A stretch of DNA of 32,725 bases from Desulfonatronospira sp. (GTDB taxonomy: Bacteria > Desulfobacterota > Desulfovibrionia > Desulfovibrionales > Desulfonatronovibrionaceae), in NCBI GenBank assembly GCA_007125075.1, contig SLDX01000086.1, forward strand, positions 1 through 32,725, read 5' to 3'. A model generated the notes under the pieces. It was not told the origin of the DNA, made no database searches, and worked only from the letters and a program-made list of their open reading frames with translations. This document shows, piece after piece, positions 9,847 to 25,867 of the stretch. How positions within the stretch are numbered: position 1 is the stretch's first letter; every line of letters begins with the position of its first letter. Both the position numbers and the translations under genes were made by a program.

Positions 9847-12800
9847 TTATTCAGCTGTTTTTACTTTAAGGGGTCTGGGCACAATAGCCACAAATCGCTT
9901 GCGGGCATATTTCAACAGTTCTTTTACGGCTGCCGCCTCTTCCAGCTGCAGGCTTTTTTCCAGTTCTTGAATATATGGTGCAAGAAGTTCGTGAATATCC
10001 CTGAGTCCCTGGTCGGAAACAGGACATAACTCCACGTGCGCCCCCCTGGCCAGGCGTAGCAGAACAGAATTCCGGTTGAAGCCGAATTCCGGATACAGAC
10101 ACTGATAGATCACCCCGCCAGTCATGCCTGAACAGATCCACGGACCTGGATCTCCCAGGACCACTGCTCTTCCTCCGGTCATATATTCAAAGGCAAAACC
10201 TTTGAGGTGGGCACGCACTGCGAGATTGCCCATATCGTCTTGAACAGGGGCCGTGATTCTGCCTCCAAAAACAACGTCCGCGCCTGAAAGGCGCACACAG
10301 GCCCTGGAATCGGCCATGTTCTGGATCATCAGCAGGCCGCCTATGGCTCCATAACCAAAACTTTTTCCGGTGGAGCCGTCGATATGCCTGCCCTGATGGT
10401 TGCTTCCCTTGAACACGCCAAGACTCCCGCCACAGCAGCCCTTGGCCGCTCCGTCCTGTGATCCCCCCTCCACGATCACTTCAAGGTGATGAGTGCAGAA
10501 GGCGCTGAGTCCGTTGCCCGGTATGGAGGCTCCCAGCCGCAGGCGGGCCTTGAGATCTCTTCTATCCGGAAAAGTTCGCTGCATGGCTCCTGCCAGATAG
10601 GTTCCAACCGCCCGATCAGAACTGTGCACTTCATCTTCAGAAAAGCGGACCAGTGTCTCTTCTTTCCTGAAAAGGTTCATGGCCAGATCGGAAATCATTT
10701 TTGTTAAATAATTAAGTGGCTTGCGAAATACATGGCTGTAAGTTGAATTTGCCTGATTTAAAGATGGACTTGAGGATCTGATCAGTTCGCTGAGATCTAC
10801 TTTTTCCTGTCCAAGGGTTTGTACCAGAAGATCTGTGCGACCCACAAGATCCTGGAGTCTGGATACGCCCATACGGGCAAGGCGCATGCGCAGCTCATCG
10901 CCTATTGCTCCCAGAAGCCTGGACAGATTTTCAGCTTCAGCTTCTGTCTCGCGAGGCCAGAAGCCTTTTACTCCTTTGCCTTCGGCTTCTTCTCTGGTGG
11001 TCATTTGAGTGGAAATGCCCATGGGACAGCGGTCCAGATGACAGCGCCTGCAGCTTACGCACCCTATGCCCATAAGAGTCACAGTGCCAAGACCAACTCG
11101 ATTGGCTCCGAGAAGGATAAGCTTGAGCACTTCGTTCCCGCTGCGCACTCCTCCGTCGCACCAGATTTCAACATTATGTCGCAGTCCGGATTCCTTCAGG
11201 GCCCGGTGAGCTTCACTCACCCCGATCTCCACAGGCAGTCCTACGTAACGCTTGGAATGTTCTCTGGCTGCTCCGGTACCGCCCTCATAACCGCTGATAT
11301 TGACAATATCAGCTCCTGCCTTGGCTATGCCTACGGCAATGGTCCCCACACCCGAAGTTACCGGAATCTTCACCGAAATTCTGGCATCGGGATGGGCGGT
11401 CTTGAGTTCGGTGACTGTCTGGGCCAGATCTTCAATGGAATAGATGTCATGCTGATTGGAAGGTGAGATCAGAGTAATTCCAGGTTTGCATTTACGAGCC
11501 ATGGCCACCATTTGGGAGACTTTGGATCCGGGGAGGTGTCCGCCTTCACCGGGTTTGGCTCCCTGGCCGATTTTGATCTCCAGGTAGTCTGCAGAATTAA
11601 GCAGCCCCATATAAACACCAAAACGTCCGGATGCGATCTGCTGTCCCCGGTTGCGGCGGAACATGCCCAGCATGTCCGGAATCTCCCCGCCCTCACCATT
11701 AATGCAGATTATATTCGCCTTTTTCGCGGCCAGAGCATAGGACCGGAAGGAATTCTCACCCTGGGAACCAAAGGACATGGCCGCAATAATCAGAGGAAGA
11801 TCATGCCGGCCAATGGACAGGTCTATCTGGTCCTGGGTCAGCCATTTTTCCCTGTCAGCCTGCTTGATGCTTAGAAGGTGCCGCAGACCAGCCGGCTGTT
11901 CGTTCTCAAGTTTCTCCAGAAATTCGGCCATTTCCGCGTAGCCGGTCTTGCCCAGGGCCACTTTGCGCAACACTCTGCCCACCCTGGGATTGCGGGAGAC
12001 TTCTGAGTGCAGCTCTTGATGCTTTCCTGCGACGGCTTTTTCAAGACGCAGGACGCATTGTCGCTCGATAGTTTCCAGGCTGAGTCCTGATTTTTCCGAA
12101 GCGCAAAAATTTGAAGTCGAAAGCATGCGGGAAAGATCATGGGTAAGGCCTATGGTGGAAAAAATTCTGCCGTAGCCGCAAAGCTCATGAATGCCCATGG
12201 TGGACATTACTTTTTCCATGCCGGCCTGCAGGACGTGCATGGTGTTTCTTACCGCCTTGACCGGAGCCAGCTGCTCATGGGAAAAATCTGCGGCGATACG
12301 CCACAAAAGGTAAGGATTTAGGGCATCCGCTCCCAGACCGAGCAGAACCATAATGTCGTGCAGGTTGCGCACTGCTCCCGAACGTACAATTATGGAAGCT
12401 TTCCGGCGCAGGCCGGATCTTGAAAGTTTTTCGGCAACACATGCAGTGGCCAGGGCTGGATCGATAAATACGCGGTTGTCCTCAAATGCTCGGGAATCAT
12501 CAAGGAGGATGAGCATGCACCCGGAGACAGCTTTCTTACAGGCTGCAGCAGCCATGGAATCGAGAGCTTTTTTCAGGTTTTGTCCAGGCACGAAAGTAGC
12601 GTCGATCACTGCGGTCAGCCGGGGATCGCGGCCCTGGCCGGAAAAAAAGGCTGTCACCTCCTCCAGCAGAGCTCCCTTGAACTCTCTGGCCAGCTCCTGC
12701 TCCTCAGGCAGGTCAACAAGGCCTTCAAGACCGCGACCTCCCAAAAGAAGAGGGGTCTCAAGCACCAGTCCCAGGGGCGGGATTCTGTCCTTTTGATTAA

Positions 12801-20921: not shown

Positions 20922-21989
20922 ATGGAAAAGCAAATGGCGATGATTTTGGAAATAATCTCTATCTCTCTGGCCACGGCTCCATGGCTTCTTTTCGGTCTGT
21001 TCCTTGCCGGACTTATAAAGGCTGCCATACCTCAGGAATTAATGAAGAAATGGGTGGGCGGCAGTGGCATTGGGGTTATAACCCGTTCAGCTGTGATCGG
21101 TGCGCCGTTGCCTCTTTGTTCCTGCGGAGCCATTCCAGTAGCATTGTCCTTGTATCGCGGAGGAGCAGGCCGGGGTCCTGCTACGGCTTTTTTGATAGGC
21201 ACCCCGGGTATAGGGGTTGATTCAATATTGATCACTTACGCCCTGCTTGGACCGCACATGGCATTGATGCGTGCTCTGGGAGCGGTGATTACAGCCATAT
21301 GTACCGGGCTTCTGGTGTCATCCACAAAGACTTCTGCTCCGGATATAAACAGCGAACAACTACGATGTCCTGATAGATGCGGTCCAGGAACATGCACCAG
21401 CCCCTGGTCTGAAACTGAAAAAGAAAGACCTGAACCGTGGGCAGCCAGGATTCGCCATGGAATGATCTACGCATTTTCTGATCTTTTGGATGACATAGGA
21501 ATATGGATACTTGCTGGTCTGGTGGTTGCCGGCCTGATAGTTGCCTTTCTTCCGCCTGAAGTTCTGATTGACTACGGAAGCGGCCTTCTACCCATGCTCT
21601 TGATGGCAGTGATCGGGATTCCTCTTTATATCTGCGCTGCAGCTGCAACACCTGTTGGAGCAGGCCTGCTCCAGGCCGGAGTTTCGCCGGGCACCGTACT
21701 TGTGTTTCTTCTGGCGGCCCCGATAACAAGCATGGCCACGCTGGGAGTTTTGCGCCGTGAGCTGGGCAAAACTGCTCTGGCATATTATCTCTCAGGTATT
21801 TTGTTGACTTCCATAATGCTGGGCATGGCCGCAGATCAATTTATCCTTTTTGCCGGCATCGATGTTATCGCTCAAAGCAGGAAAGTCAGGGAACTCATCC
21901 CTGAGTGGTTTGAATGGACCGCTTTGATCATTCTCATCTCACTGACCATAAGAGCCCGTATAAACTTTACCAGGCTGCGGCCGTTTTAG
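20922..21989 (+). CDS. Permease of the SO_0444/ArsP-like family, probable Cu/Zn (or metalloid) efflux
   Basis: 355 residues with about eight membrane segments in two halves. The family hallmark APLPLCSCGAIPVALSLYRGGAGRGPATAFLIGTPGIGVDS is present, including the conserved CxC (Cys66, Cys68) in a re-entrant or helix region. A related inverted motif in the second half reads IPLYICAAAATPVGAGLLQAGVSPGTVLVFLLAAP. A central hydrophilic loop carries a small cysteine cluster CPDRCGPGTC (Cys149, 153, 158), suited to binding soft metals. SO_0444-type members are annotated as Cu/Zn efflux transporters, ArsP members as organoarsenical exporters. Which applies here is undecided. No metallochaperone or regulator is adjacent. 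Confidence 0.82.
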   Translation: MEKQMAMILEIISISLATAPWLLFGLFLAGLIKAAIPQELMKKWVGGSGIGVITRSAVIGAPLPLCSCGAIPVALSLYRGGAGRGPATAFLIGTPGIGVDSILITYALLGPHMALMRALGAVITAICTGLLVSSTKTSAPDINSEQLRCPDRCGPGTCTSPWSETEKERPEPWAARIRHGMIYAFSDLLDDIGIWILAGLVVAGLIVAFLPPEVLIDYGSGLLPMLLMAVIGIPLYICAAAATPVGAGLLQAGVSPGTVLVFLLAAPITSMATLGVLRRELGKTALAYYLSGILLTSIMLGMAADQFILFAGIDVIAQSRKVRELIPEWFEWTALIILISLTIRARINFTRLRPF

Positions 21990-22321: not shown

Positions 22322-22543
22322 ATGTGGGTATGGGTAGCCAGATGGCTTAAAAAAGAAGGTAATCTTGAAGCGGTAAAAAAAGACGCGGAAGCAGTCAGTA
22401 AACACTGGCAGGAAGTGGCTCTGGACGTAGGGCTGGATCCGGAAAAAAATGTTACGATCGCCGAAGGAGACAAGGAAGTAAGGGTCGGGATCAGCGAGGA
22501 AATGGATTTGAAATTCCGGGAAGAACCTGGAGAATGGCGTTAA
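22322..22543 (+). CDS. Small uncharacterised protein (73 aa)
   Basis: I do not recognise this protein. It is 73 residues long and starts with an aromatic stretch MWVWVARWLKKEG, followed by a charged helix-like part (NLEAVKKDAEAVSKHWQEVALDVG) and a strand-like end (KNVTIAEGDKEVRVGISEEMDLKF). A strong ribosome site, AGGAGG eight bases before the ATG, makes it a real gene. It has no signal peptide and no cysteines, so it is likely cytoplasmic. It is followed by a long palindromic repeat and then the DsrC-like gene, so an operon with the latter is uncertain. Confidence 0.72.
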   Translation: MWVWVARWLKKEGNLEAVKKDAEAVSKHWQEVALDVGLDPEKNVTIAEGDKEVRVGISEEMDLKFREEPGEWR

Positions 22544-22885
22544 TAGTTAAGGGCTGCCGCTCGACGTAAATGTCCAAGCAGTATTCTGAAGGTAAGTTCA
22601 GACTCAGATCTATTGCTGTACAAAGCTGTCCATTGAGTTGGAAACCGTTGTTGATAAAAATCGTTTTCATTAAGAAATTTTCTTTTTGATATCCTAACTG
22701 CCTGTTGAAAAAATCGTAATTGAACAGGCCGTTCAAAAATTCCAAGTGCAAGAAGCAAAAAAAGTTCAAGGTAGATGCGTATTTAGACATACGTGAGAGC
22801 TTGAACTTTTTGAAGCGACGCAGCAATTGGAAGATTTTCAACGGCCTGCTAACTGAGTAACCGAAGCCTAAGGAGAAGAAGCAAA
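22544..22885. other. Intergenic region holding the long palindromic repeat
   Basis: About 340 bases without a gene. The right half is the imperfect palindrome at 22700-22849. An open frame on the minus strand across it mostly translates the repeat and was rejected. AAGGAG at its right end is the ribosome site of the DsrC-like gene. Confidence 0.55.
22700..22849. repeat. Long imperfect palindromic intergenic repeat (about 150 bp)
   Basis: The outer arms ACAGGCCGTTCAAAAA (22724-22739) and TTTTCAACGGCCTGCT (22834-22849) pair with few mismatches. The inner arms AAAAAGTTCAAG (22759-22770) and CTTGAACTTTTT (22800-22811) are perfectly complementary, and a small inner CGTAT/ATACG pairing caps the structure. 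A side hairpin GCCTGTT/AACAGGC lies at 22700-22729. The whole can fold into one long hairpin. From memory it resembles intergenic repeats common in Deltaproteobacterial genomes; it may be a REP/MITE-like element. Confidence 0.8.
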
Positions 22886-23248
22886 ATGCCGTTTTTAAAT
22901 GTTAAAGACAAGCAGATTGAAGTGGATGAAAAGGGTTTTCTGGTCAACCAGGATGACTGGAATGGAGATGTGGCCAAAGCGCTGTTGAAGCATCATAACG
23001 GTCCTGAACCCGACCCGGAGACTCTTGAAATTCTTCGCTTTATACATAACTACTATAAAAAATTCAGTGCTTTTCCAATCATGAAGGAAGTGTGCAAAAG
23101 GGTAGACCAGCCAAAACAATGCGTACAGGAACACTTTCTTGATCCTGCCCTGGCCTGGAAGGCGGCGGGACTGCCCAAGCCCGATACCATGTACACAGAA
23201 TCCCATGATGATGCGCACAAAATTTATAAAATCATAACAGCACAATAA
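22886..23248 (+). CDS. DsrC/TusE-family protein lacking both C-terminal redox cysteines (RspA-like)
   Basis: 120 residues. The family fold is clear: PFLNVKDKQIEVDEKGFLVNQDDWNGDVAKALLKHHN at the N-terminus, then a helical ILRFIHNYYKKFSAFPIMKEVCKRV and the final arm AWKAAGLPKPD. In canonical DsrC the arm carries two cysteines, one ahead of AGLPKP and the last near the C-terminus, which form the trisulfide with sulfite reductase. TusE keeps only the last. Here both are replaced (Trp-Lys before AGLPKP, Asp-Thr-Met after) and an ~18-residue tail is added. Homologues without both cysteines have been grouped as RspA, proposed regulatory sulfur-related proteins. AAGGAG lies ten bases before the ATG. 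It precedes an electron-transfer operon. Confidence 0.88.
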   Translation: MPFLNVKDKQIEVDEKGFLVNQDDWNGDVAKALLKHHNGPEPDPETLEILRFIHNYYKKFSAFPIMKEVCKRVDQPKQCVQEHFLDPALAWKAAGLPKPDTMYTESHDDAHKIYKIITAQ

Positions 23249-23319
23249 TCATATGCTGCAGAGATCAGGTCAGCTGCAAATTTTTAAAGTTAGATGAATT
23301 AACAGGATGATTTTTGCAA

Positions 23320-23685
23320 ATGTTCAAGAAATTTATTTATGCTGCAGTTTTACTGTTTTCTGTGTTAATTTTTTCAATGGGTTTTAACGCCGTTGATTCA
23401 AATAATAAAGAGGCTGAAGGTTTTATTGTCAACAAGGTGCTGGCAGCAGAAACCGAAGAGAGGGATATACAGTGGTTTAGAGATCAGTTGGGCATATCTG
23501 AACAATATATCGAAGAGCCTGACGGGATATGGGGAATGTCCTGGGCGCACTTTCTGACCATGCTCATTCTGGTTCTCTTTGCTTTGGGCGCACTGGTGCT
23601 GTTTGTCATGCAGCAGAAAAGAACCAGGGAAATTATGGAATCGATCAGAAAGGAGATGGAACATGGTGATGGAAATACAGGTTGA
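23320..23685 (+). CDS. Small membrane protein of an electron-transfer operon
   Basis: 121 residues from the ATG at 23320; a TTG at 23314 is a possible alternative because the AGGA motif is six bases before it and twelve before the ATG. The first ~20 residues are a hydrophobic signal or anchor (FIYAAVLLFSVLIFSMGF), followed by a short probably exported segment (AAETEERDIQWFRDQLGISEQYIEEPDGIWG). A second membrane helix follows (HFLTMLILVLFALGALVLFVM), then a charged tail. No heme or iron-sulfur motif is present. I do not recognise the family. It overlaps the ferredoxin gene by 23 bases, so it is translationally linked to it and may be an assembly or anchoring subunit. Confidence 0.75.
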   Translation: MFKKFIYAAVLLFSVLIFSMGFNAVDSNNKEAEGFIVNKVLAAETEERDIQWFRDQLGISEQYIEEPDGIWGMSWAHFLTMLILVLFALGALVLFVMQQKRTREIMESIRKEMEHGDGNTG

Positions 23686-23935
23686 ATTCAAGAAATCCGA
23701 AAAAATCGCACTTTGGTGTGACAGCCATGATAACCTTCTGGAAATGGCTGAAGAAAACGGGATAAAAATTACATCAGAGTGTGCCGCCGGCATATGCGGG
23801 TCATGCAAAGTCAAGCTGCTTGACGGGGAAGTGGAAATGGAGACACAGGAAGGCCTTGACGATGAAGACCTAAAAGAGAATATGATTCTTTTATGCGTGT
23901 CAGTGCCCTTGTCCAACCTCGTTCTTGATGTCTGA
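23663..23935 (+). CDS. [2Fe-2S] ferredoxin, plant/adrenodoxin-like fold
   Basis: 90 residues from the ATG at 23663, chosen because AAGGAG ends eight bases upstream; the longer open frame to 23579 runs through the neighbouring gene. Four cysteines are placed as in 2Fe-2S ferredoxins: Cys40, Cys45 and Cys48 in ECAAGICGSCKVKLL (C-x4-C-x2-C) and Cys78 in LLCVSVP. The preceding NLLEMAEENGIKITSEC matches the usual helix leading into the cluster loop. No signal peptide is seen, so it should act in the cytoplasm. Its placement between two membrane protein genes suggests it donates to or accepts electrons from the membrane b-type cytochrome encoded next. Cys19 is extra. Confidence 0.88.
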   Translation: MVMEIQVEFKKSEKIALWCDSHDNLLEMAEENGIKITSECAAGICGSCKVKLLDGEVEMETQEGLDDEDLKENMILLCVSVPLSNLVLDV

Positions 23936-23943
23936 TTTACAAG

Positions 23944-24657
23944 ATGAAAGAAAGACAGATAAATATCTTTCTTGCTGTATTCTTCATCATTCTTCTTATG
24001 GGATTTGTTGTCCACGAGAGCAGGACCTTTCCGGGCAGCGCACCTGGTCATGTTCTGGGCATTGCCGGGGGCATTTTCATGCTCATGGCTCTTCTTTATT
24101 CTTTTCGCAAGAGGTTTTTAAAGAAAAGAGGCAAACAGAATCCTATCAACAGGCACATCACCTATGGGCTGATAGGCTCTTCCCTGGTGATTACCCATTC
24201 AGGACACGCAGTTTCCAGCCTGATCGGCCTGCTCATCTTTTTGTCCGTAATGCTTGTCGTCTTAAGCGGCATTGTTGGTTATTATATGTTCAAAAGAGTA
24301 ACCAGAACCCTGAAGGACCATAAAAAGGATCATGAGCTTTTAAAGGCGCATCTCAGAAGACGAAGACATGAGCTGCTCAATGCCTGCAGGATCCAGGATC
24401 CGGAGGATTTGCAGGAAGTCACGCCACCCGTATGGAGGCTGAGGTTCCGTTCAGATATGATGGACGAGTGCGGACGCTGGATGGACGAGGTCAGAGTCCT
24501 GGCTGAAAAGGAGTATACCATAAAGTTTTTTGACCAGTTAAAAAGTATTTTCACCAAGTGGGTCAAGGTGCATCACACCATAGCCTTTCTTTTGTTCGCC
24601 CTGTTGATCGTTCATGTTCTGACCAATGTATATTATGGATTGCGCTGGCTGCCATGA
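23944..24657 (+). CDS. Cytochrome b-like integral membrane protein
   Basis: 237 residues with five hydrophobic segments (about 7-24, 34-54, 71-88, 90-113 and 212-234) and a 90-residue cytoplasmic or loop domain between the fourth and fifth. Histidines sit at or near membrane segments: His36 (PGHVLG), His71, His85 and His88 (VITHSGHAV), the HH pair at about 210 and a later IVHVLTN histidine. This is the pattern expected for a di-heme b-type cytochrome. The charged loop is rich in Arg, Lys and Glu (DHKKDHELLKAHLRRRRHELL). It starts eight bases after the ferredoxin stop and overlaps the heptaheme cytochrome by ATGA. I recognise no named subfamily; heme binding is inferred from histidine placement only. 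Confidence 0.75.
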   Translation: MKERQINIFLAVFFIILLMGFVVHESRTFPGSAPGHVLGIAGGIFMLMALLYSFRKRFLKKRGKQNPINRHITYGLIGSSLVITHSGHAVSSLIGLLIFLSVMLVVLSGIVGYYMFKRVTRTLKDHKKDHELLKAHLRRRRHELLNACRIQDPEDLQEVTPPVWRLRFRSDMMDECGRWMDEVRVLAEKEYTIKFFDQLKSIFTKWVKVHHTIAFLLFALLIVHVLTNVYYGLRWLP

Positions 24658-25277
24658 AAATAATATTTCTATACGTTGCCATATTTGCAGCAATTATTGG
24701 TTTTTCCGCATGGCTTTATTCTTATGATCAGGCTGCCAAGCCCGGCGGCTTAAGCAGTGCTCATGAATTTATCCATGAGTGCGAAACCTGCCATACCCCC
24801 TGGCAGGGCGTCAGTGATCAGATGTGCAGGTATTGTCATTTTTTTGATGACCCAATGGACTTGAAGCCGGAGATACGCTTCCACGTGGCGGAGAAACATT
24901 GCCTGCAATGCCATACTGAGCATCTCGGCAGGGGCGGGGACATAGCCAGGGTTGATCATACCCTTTTTCATCCTGATCTTTTATGCACGGATTGTCACTT
25001 CGATCCGCATCAGGGTAATTTCGGGGATGACTGCAGGATCTGCCACGGAATTACATCCTGGGAAGTTGAGGGCTTCAGTCATCCTCCGGCGGATAACAGA
25101 AACTGTCATCACTGCCACAAAGCTCCGGCATCTCATCATGCCCCGGAGTTGTGGGAACAGATCCTCAAAGGGCATCAGATTGTCATTGATCCGGATGAAC
25201 CTCCAGCAGTTGATGAGTGCTGGCAATGTCACACCACCCATCGCTGGGGACATCTGATGATGGATCATGATCTTTAA
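24654..25277 (+). CDS. Seven-heme membrane-anchored c-type cytochrome
   Basis: 207 residues. The N-terminal hydrophobic helix (residues 3-20) is probably an uncleaved anchor, with the rest in the periplasm. Seven CxxCH heme motifs are readable: CETCH (43-47), CRYCH (58-62), CLQCH (83-87), CTDCH (111-115), CRICH (127-131), CHHCH (151-155) and CWQCH (189-193), with many additional histidines for the second axial ligands. The gene begins inside the stop of the cytochrome b-like gene (ATGA). The likely job is to pass electrons between the membrane protein and periplasmic cytochromes such as the c3-like protein encoded opposite. The open frame extending upstream to 24558 overlaps the previous gene and was rejected. 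Confidence 0.88.
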   Translation: MKIIFLYVAIFAAIIGFSAWLYSYDQAAKPGGLSSAHEFIHECETCHTPWQGVSDQMCRYCHFFDDPMDLKPEIRFHVAEKHCLQCHTEHLGRGGDIARVDHTLFHPDLLCTDCHFDPHQGNFGDDCRICHGITSWEVEGFSHPPADNRNCHHCHKAPASHHAPELWEQILKGHQIVIDPDEPPAVDECWQCHTTHRWGHLMMDHDL

Positions 25278-25285
25278 ATTAAGAA

Positions 25286-25321
25286 GAAAAAAAACGCCTG
25301 CAAAGATGGACTTTGCAGGCG
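25286..25321 (-). terminator. Intrinsic terminator between convergent cytochrome genes
   Basis: CGCCTGCAAAG (25295-25305), loop ATGGA, and CTTTGCAGGCG (25311-25321) form a perfect 11-bp stem. On the minus strand it is followed by eight Ts, so it best terminates the c3-like gene at 25412-25867. It lies 17 bases after the heptaheme cytochrome stop and may slow that transcript too. Confidence 0.82.
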
Positions 25322-25411
25322 CTTAAGCAGGGAGGAGGACAAGGAATTTTTTAGATTTTTGGAAATAATTTGAAATTTTTTTTAAAAATCTACAGCAATT
25401 TTGCCTGTGAA

Positions 25412-25867
25412 CTACCTCATATGGCATCCAATGCAGGTGGTGGGAGCATCCATGGCCTGAGCGAATTCATCGTGCACGTGACAGCCGAGCCAGCACATGT
25501 GATGGTAGGCCTCTTCAAAATAGAAAAGGTCGTCCATATCACGTGTGGTCCGGGTCCCTGCGTAAACGTTCTCCGGATCAGGATCAGTGGCGGCTACATC
25601 ATGACATCCGAACTCCATGCATCCGATGTAATCGCCGGTATGGTGGCACTCCATACAGTCATAATCTATGTGTGAGTCATGGGAAAAAGGCACAGGGTTC
25701 AGCTTTTTCGGTCCATACTCCTCCTCATATTCCACCGGGGGATACATCATTATAAGATCAGGATAATCGCCTTCATGCTGATAGGTCAAACCGGCATAGA
25801 GGCTTGGAATGACCAGAAATCCCATTAACATGGCACACAACACGCCAATAACCACAGATCTTTTCAT
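25412..25867 (-). CDS. Tetraheme cytochrome c3-like protein with one unusual heme motif
   Basis: 151 residues. A cleavable signal peptide (MKRSVVIGVLCAMLMGFLVIPSLYAG) sends it to the periplasm. Four heme sites are readable: CMECH (71-75), CMEFGCH (83-89, the CX4CH form usual in c3), CWLGCH (125-130, a CX3CH) and CIGCH (145-149). Preceding His63 and His66 (FSHDSH) match the axial ligands of c3. Class III cytochromes carry electrons from periplasmic hydrogenases or formate dehydrogenases to membrane complexes. The third site, with three residues between the cysteines, is abnormal; the bases at 25478-25495 are unambiguous in the given sequence. A strong ribosome site AAGGAGGT lies upstream. It converges on the heptaheme operon. 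Confidence 0.85.
   Translation of the reverse strand: MKRSVVIGVLCAMLMGFLVIPSLYAGLTYQHEGDYPDLIMMYPPVEYEEEYGPKKLNPVPFSHDSHIDYDCMECHHTGDYIGCMEFGCHDVAATDPDPENVYAGTRTTRDMDDLFYFEEAYHHMCWLGCHVHDEFAQAMDAPTTCIGCHMR

Follow-up and report, generated by a model that had tools for sequence, protein, structure and literature searches.

Pairs of a b-type membrane cytochrome and a multiheme c-type cytochrome have been described before. He et al. (2017; PMC5566968) reported five-helix membrane proteins (IMPs) that carry the motif H-x13-H twice and are encoded beside multiheme cytochromes, and proposed a quinone-linked, Fe(II)-related electron transfer for them. Geobacter uses CbcBA, an inner-membrane route of the bc type, near -0.2 V (PMC12307469). 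Ferric reductases and NADPH oxidases (FRE/NOX, FRD fold), as well as MsrPQ with its flavin reductase, combine a diheme b core with a cytoplasmic NAD(P)H–flavin feed and deliver electrons outside. Copper-resistance islands have been studied for their pumps, oxidases and chaperones, and we know of no described Cop, Pco or Cus component that is a ferredoxin, a cytochrome b or a heptaheme cytochrome. Here we analyze a 32,725-nucleotide stretch from Desulfonatronospira sp., a sulfur bacterium of soda lakes (contig SLDX01000086.1 of assembly GCA_007125075.1; hereafter the window), whose source genome is a 2.17 Mb draft in 149 contigs with 97% completeness. Four genes at positions 23320–25277 encode a small membrane protein, a [2Fe-2S] ferredoxin, a diheme cytochrome b and a heptaheme cytochrome c. 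With moderate confidence, we propose that they represent a split form, without flavin domains, of a mobile transmembrane module that belongs to metal-resistance islands, mainly those for copper, and would export electrons.

Anatomy and distribution of the core genes

The first gene (23320–23685, + strand), identified by its open reading frame, helix prediction and a profile of seven such proteins, encodes a 121-residue membrane anchor protein. A signal-like N-terminal helix is followed by a periplasmic segment with the motif DIQWFRDQL...GIWGMSWAHF, one membrane helix and a tail that is basic and therefore placed in the cytoplasm. The gene overlaps by 23 bases that of a 90-residue plant-type ferredoxin (23663–23935, +), and an 8-base gap leads to the gene for cytochrome b (23944–24657, +), which shares an ATGA overlap with that for the membrane-anchored heptaheme cytochrome (24654–25277, +). 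A first-pass annotation, made from the sequence alone, had placed these genes, overlaps and gap correctly to the base. Pfam matches above cut-off were obtained to Fer2 (57.9 bits) and Cytochrome_C7 (30.6 bits) and, for two flanking genes considered below, to DsrC (56.5 bits) and Cytochrom_CIII (42.9 bits); cytochrome b gave only sub-threshold b561 and ferric-reductase matches. Ratios of nonsynonymous to synonymous substitution rates (dN/dS) against an 81% relative (L002) are 0.19 for the small protein, 0.16 for both ferredoxin and cytochrome b and 0.10 for the heptaheme, so that all four reading frames are real proteins under purifying selection.

Cytochrome b has five predicted helices and two H-x13-H pairs, one in helix 3 (His71, codon 24154–24156, and His85, codon 24196–24198, +) and one in helix 5 (His210, codon 24571–24573, and His224, codon 24613–24615, +). 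These predicted heme b ligands are invariant in 21 of 21 homologues. Helix 4 carries SGIVG at residue 108, and S/TGxxG is present in 19 of the 21. The same arrangement of five helices, H-x13-H pairs on helices 3 and 5 and SGxxG on helix 4, with a multiheme c partner and often another redox protein, characterizes the IMPs of the PCC3/PCC4 and 'other MHC' clusters in PMC5566968; the b/heptaheme pair thus belongs to a known kind. Of the W-x3-H motif given there as preceding both pairs, the window protein has the copy at His210 (W206) and lacks the first tryptophan, on helix 3, at His71. The heptaheme has an N-terminal anchor and exactly seven CxxCH motifs. These motifs and seven additional histidines do not vary among 18 sequences, a pattern that fits bis-His ligation of all its hemes. 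A search of solved structures returned no relative for cytochrome b and, for the heptaheme, matches limited to short c7/c3-like stretches. The first-pass annotation had not recognized the set among named complexes; in agreement, no NCBIfam model for Hmc, Tmc, Nhc, Ohc, Qrc, Dsr or Qmo matches cytochrome b or the heptaheme.

Full-length cytochromes b of this family occur in 8 of 348 genomes of the order, spread over three genera, and in five more genomes of a 395-genome sample of the phylum; this scattered distribution points to horizontal transfer. The core is conserved across the 13 Desulfobacterota genomes read, and wherever the contig of a split-form genome is long enough, even in distant genomes, the genes follow one another as small protein, (ferredoxin), cytochrome b and heptaheme; loss of gene order among relatives had been named beforehand as the outcome that would count against a real system. 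The first-pass annotation had drawn the set wider, with six genes. What holds is the four-gene core, a conserved and selected unit; the two outer genes, for a DsrC-like and a c3-like protein, adjoin it only in the close twin G004, a Desulfonatronospira metagenome-assembled genome (record SLAE01000194) with 81% identity in cytochrome b. Viral contigs contained no relative of the module.

Several copies showed peculiarities of their own. In G666, an otherwise near-complete genome, the ferredoxin gene is read in two different frames (L063, about 10180–10350, −), owing to a frameshift or a sequencing error. A gene beside the module at L021:7163-8302 joins a YHS metal-binding domain to a lactate/malate dehydrogenase, and similar fused-looking genes are found in L018 and L020. 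G035 holds a more distant pair, a 190-residue cytochrome b with a decaheme partner, preceded by sigma-factor and Spy-like genes (L023:8452-9941); it hints at a wider family of b/multiheme pairs with a link to stress.

Fused relatives on plasmids

Searching plasmids with tblastn, we obtained matches to cytochrome b in 52 records and to the heptaheme in 53, largely from the same organisms (Proteobacteria and Bacteroidota); 26 of the matching records are typed as conjugative. On more than 50 plasmids the genes form a trio, in which a fused oxidoreductase precedes cytochrome b and heptaheme, the latter two in the window's order and overlapping or abutting. An Emticicia match, which resembles an alternative-complex-III cytochrome rather than a trio, was excluded from the counts. 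Full-length identity between window and plasmid copies is 26–33% for cytochrome b and 31–36% for the heptaheme. The first trio protein, 612–686 residues where intact, contains NAD_binding_1, FAD_binding_6 and a C-terminal Fer2; its layout comprises a periplasmic Met/His-rich part, a membrane helix, the FAD domain, the NAD domain and the [2Fe-2S] domain. Met and His make up 8.7% of the periplasmic part in these fused proteins, against 5.0% in the comparison.

The two small proteins of the window correspond to the two ends of this fused protein. A profile of seven small anchor proteins matches the periplasmic–membrane segment in each of the seven intact fused proteins from plasmids that were tested (E 5e-16 to 8e-6), and the window ferredoxin aligns with their C-terminal Fer2 domain. 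The window therefore has the N-terminal and C-terminal ends as separate genes, without the middle. FAD and NAD domains are present in the intact plasmid copies and in G605, and absent from the window, from all split copies and from G631. In the latter, anchor and Fer2 are fused in a 346-residue protein lacking a flavin domain; judged by sequence, this protein is an intermediate in which the two small genes are joined, and it strengthens the link from ferredoxin to cytochrome b. In a tree of cytochrome b, eleven split forms and ten others fall on the two sides of a branch with 100/100 support (unrooted). On the simplest reading, which is not proven, the split forms would have lost the flavin domain.

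The module shares the islands and plasmids of Cop/Pco/Cus copper-resistance systems. We scored a copper context when a gene of any of these kinds lay within 12 kb: copper resistance, multicopper oxidase, copper binding or heavy-metal P-type ATPase. By this criterion of our own, copper genes were found at 13 of 14 non-redundant trio neighborhoods and at two of six control stretches elsewhere on the same plasmids (p=0.014), a small sample with few controls. The Pontibacter trio locus has RND pumps only. Metal genes are also near the Desulfobacterota copies, with copper P-type ATPases in G571 and G666, a heavy-metal P-type ATPase in G013, homologues of CusA and CusB in G611, a CueO-like oxidase in G027 and Metal_resist proteins in G002 and G571. 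The metal-resistance gene near the window copy encodes an SO_0444 family Cu/Zn efflux transporter (20922–21989, +; NCBIfam NF033936, 381 bits, cut-off 300).

Two further features recur around the trio. DUF1622 membrane proteins adjoin it or lie nearby in several copper islands (L054, L055, L110, L113, L058, L059). A [NiFe] hydrogenase operon follows immediately after the trio in Alteromonas and Glaciecola (L056 9309-24762, L117 9306-24762, L060 9490-24714), and the Bradyrhizobium BTAi1 plasmid has a hydrogenase about 9 kb from its trio; where hydrogenase genes adjoin it, the trio might serve the oxygen-tolerant HynSL enzyme as an electron partner. Papers on the Alteromonas plasmids mention metal resistance and hydrogenase and do not mention the trio.

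Proposed electron route and competing explanations

The evidence supports ferredoxin, b-type membrane relay and heptaheme as one conserved unit at the sequence level. From the same comparisons we infer complex formation, the acceptor and the direction of electron flow, which would be outward. The single-helix anchor, translated together with the ferredoxin, would hold the latter at the membrane, and reduced ferredoxin would donate to cytochrome b on its cytoplasmic face. A stacked pair of b hemes (His71/85 with His210/224) would then carry electrons across the membrane, and the heptaheme wire would take them into the periplasm. In the plasmid systems the [2Fe-2S] center would be fed by the NAD(P)H and FAD domains of the same protein; with these domains gone in the window, another reductase or a ferredoxin pool would have to feed it. 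In the plasmid protein, the order of the domains favors entry at the cytoplasmic [2Fe-2S] center and exit through cytochrome b and heptaheme. By analogy, such a route would work like that of ferric reductases and NADPH oxidases, extended by a wire. The module differs from these and from MsrPQ in its separate polypeptides, the [2Fe-2S] center between flavin and heme and the heptaheme as acceptor, and the window form, unlike FRE/NOX, is without any flavin domain. Because outward movement of electrons costs membrane potential, a protective outlet is likelier than energy conservation; when copper or redox stress arises, it might reduce metals or damaged components of the periplasm. A path from ferredoxin through a b-type relay to periplasmic cytochromes had been anticipated in the first-pass annotation; the conserved unit and the G631 fusion support it as far as the heptaheme, and its last member, the c3-like cytochrome, drops out.

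In some relatives the wire probably continues to the cell surface. A DmsE-like heptaheme and a beta-barrel candidate of 670–687 residues adjoin the module in G611, G666 and G027, and in G571 both are on another contig together with Cus-type genes. These pairs resemble MtrAB and DmsEF conduits, except that the cytochrome has seven rather than ten CxxCH motifs and the porin matches MtrB_PioB weakly. A porin profile matched strongly in six of about 740 genomes: five with the split module, plus G035, a relative from the same genus whose genome is 85% complete. The porin is thus found in 5 of 11 split-module genomes and in one (plus one weak match) of about 730 others (p about 1e-9, uncorrected for relatedness). 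In the four relatives that have all three, split module, DmsE-like cytochrome and porin possibly form a whole-envelope conduit. We offer more tentatively the wider idea that the module is a horizontally spread family of transmembrane periplasmic (or surface) metal reductases of copper-resistance islands, in which NAD(P)H or ferredoxin drives a diheme cytochrome b and heptaheme wire, and which sulfate-reducing relatives re-plumbed to ferredoxin and their own DmsE-like/porin pair, a complete ferredoxin-to-surface conduit.

The first-pass annotation had called the set undescribed. This has to be narrowed, because b-type/multiheme pairs of the same build are already noted in PMC5566968; the accessible part of that paper gives neither a ferredoxin anchor nor a copper-island setting for them. 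In the open-access literature we found no description of the copper-island trio, of the split flavin-less form or of a dedicated porin pairing. If the electron-export proposal is true, a module that moves with copper-resistance islands on conjugative plasmids would add a redox arm to metal resistance, and the split form with its own porin would be a direct route from ferredoxin to the outside that bypasses quinones.

Several findings weigh against this proposal. The sequence evidence is silent on direction, and the copper comparison has the narrow base described above. In G016, G027 and G047 no ferredoxin gene lies between those for the small protein and cytochrome b, so that the ferredoxin may at times be dispensable or supplied elsewhere. 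The Met/His-rich domain of the fused proteins is absent from the window's small protein. The ferric reductase domain PF01794 scores 13.7 bits against the window cytochrome b (cut-off 28), and its best match among 21 members (E 0.0051) is also below threshold. An AlphaFold model of cytochrome b, built from two sequences, was of unusable quality (pTM 0.47). Finally, the window genome has no porin detectable with PF11854 or with the relatives' porin profile, and the window version ends, as far as visible, in the periplasm.

The main competitor is a menaquinol:cytochrome c oxidoreductase of the Cbc type known from Geobacter, CbcBA being one example. Compared by description, Cbc complexes also join a b-type cytochrome to a multiheme c at the inner membrane. 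Cytochrome b would oxidize menaquinol and pass electrons to the heptaheme, leaving the ferredoxin as an accessory or an ancestral leftover. We consider this unlikely. The b–multiheme pairing, the anaerobic hosts, the three relatives that keep cytochrome b and heptaheme with no adjacent ferredoxin and the likeness of the porin-linked copies to respiratory extracellular electron transfer would fit; however, the module of aerobes and of G605 has its own NAD(P)H–FAD–[2Fe-2S] feeder, which makes a quinol donor unnecessary, and G631 retains the [2Fe-2S] input. To our knowledge, Cbc complexes have no ferredoxin or flavin partner. Import of electrons strikes us as more doubtful still. Oxidation of H2, Cu(I) or another donor in the periplasm would reduce the heptaheme, from which electrons would pass inward to ferredoxin or NAD+. 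With a low-potential ferredoxin, this direction runs uphill against the usual membrane potential unless something drives it, and in FAD–NAD–Fer2 proteins of the trio's build electrons usually run outward from NAD(P)H. The hydrogenases of Alteromonas, Glaciecola and Bradyrhizobium BTAi1 and the frequent multicopper oxidase neighbors favor import, but hydrogenase is absent from the other neighborhoods read.

A third explanation, put forward in the first-pass annotation, is a sulfur-linked complex that includes the DsrC-like protein (22886–23248, +) and the c3-like tetraheme cytochrome (25412–25867, −), which flank the core in the window and in its twin. The DsrC-like protein is a member of the DsrC/TusE superfamily by fold (PF04358, 56.5 bits, cut-off 24.9; TIGR03342, 57.0 bits, cut-off 53.5). 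Sulfur-carrier DsrC is defined by two C-terminal cysteines, CysA and CysB (...CxxAGLPKPTGC...), whereas all six orthologues here have tryptophan at the CysB position, no CysA and a different 20-residue C-terminal tail, conserved as ESHDDAHKVYKLITAQ; the same genome also holds a canonical DsrC ending in CKMAGLPKPTGCV. In favor of a link, all 6 module-bearing genomes of the family have the gene, as do 2 of the 12 without the module (p=0.0015, uncorrected for relatedness), and in G013 it lies about 6 kb from the module; yet most orthologues lie elsewhere, not adjacent to the module in G001, G002, G003, G015 and G016. Homologues of the c3-like cytochrome are family-wide paralogues on other contigs, present in 18 of 18 family genomes tested with or without the module, and the aerobes carry the module outside any DsrC context. 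We therefore rejected a sulfur link through the DsrC-like protein, on its missing cysteines and unlinked orthologues, and the c3-like cytochrome as a module part, on its family-wide and unlinked occurrence; a complex of this kind is very improbable, and the metal-island reading replaces a misleading one in terms of sulfur metabolism.

Flanking genes and other features

Examples of the Cys-less DsrC-like family lie at window 22322–23248, L107:637-1347 and L018:6945-7307; in L107 the gene lies beside a superoxide dismutase gene and the same 73-residue gene that precedes it in the window. The c3-like protein gives partial matches, far below cut-off, to HmcA and nine-heme models. Its hemes are apparently bound through two CxxCH motifs, one CX4CH (CMEFGCH) and one unusual CX3CH (CWLGCH), and these motifs are kept in the twin. 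Between the convergent heptaheme and c3-like genes lies a terminator-like hairpin (25292–25324, −); since its T tract is on the minus strand, it would mainly end the c3-like transcript. An Rfam scan of the window returned no match. A 150-base palindrome-like repeat at 22700–22849 separates the 73-residue gene from the DsrC-like gene, in a stretch with a predicted RNA fold of -51.7 kcal/mol. Two further near-full copies (86%) on contigs C123 and C82 of the same genome, together with fragments, identify it as a small dispersed hairpin element.

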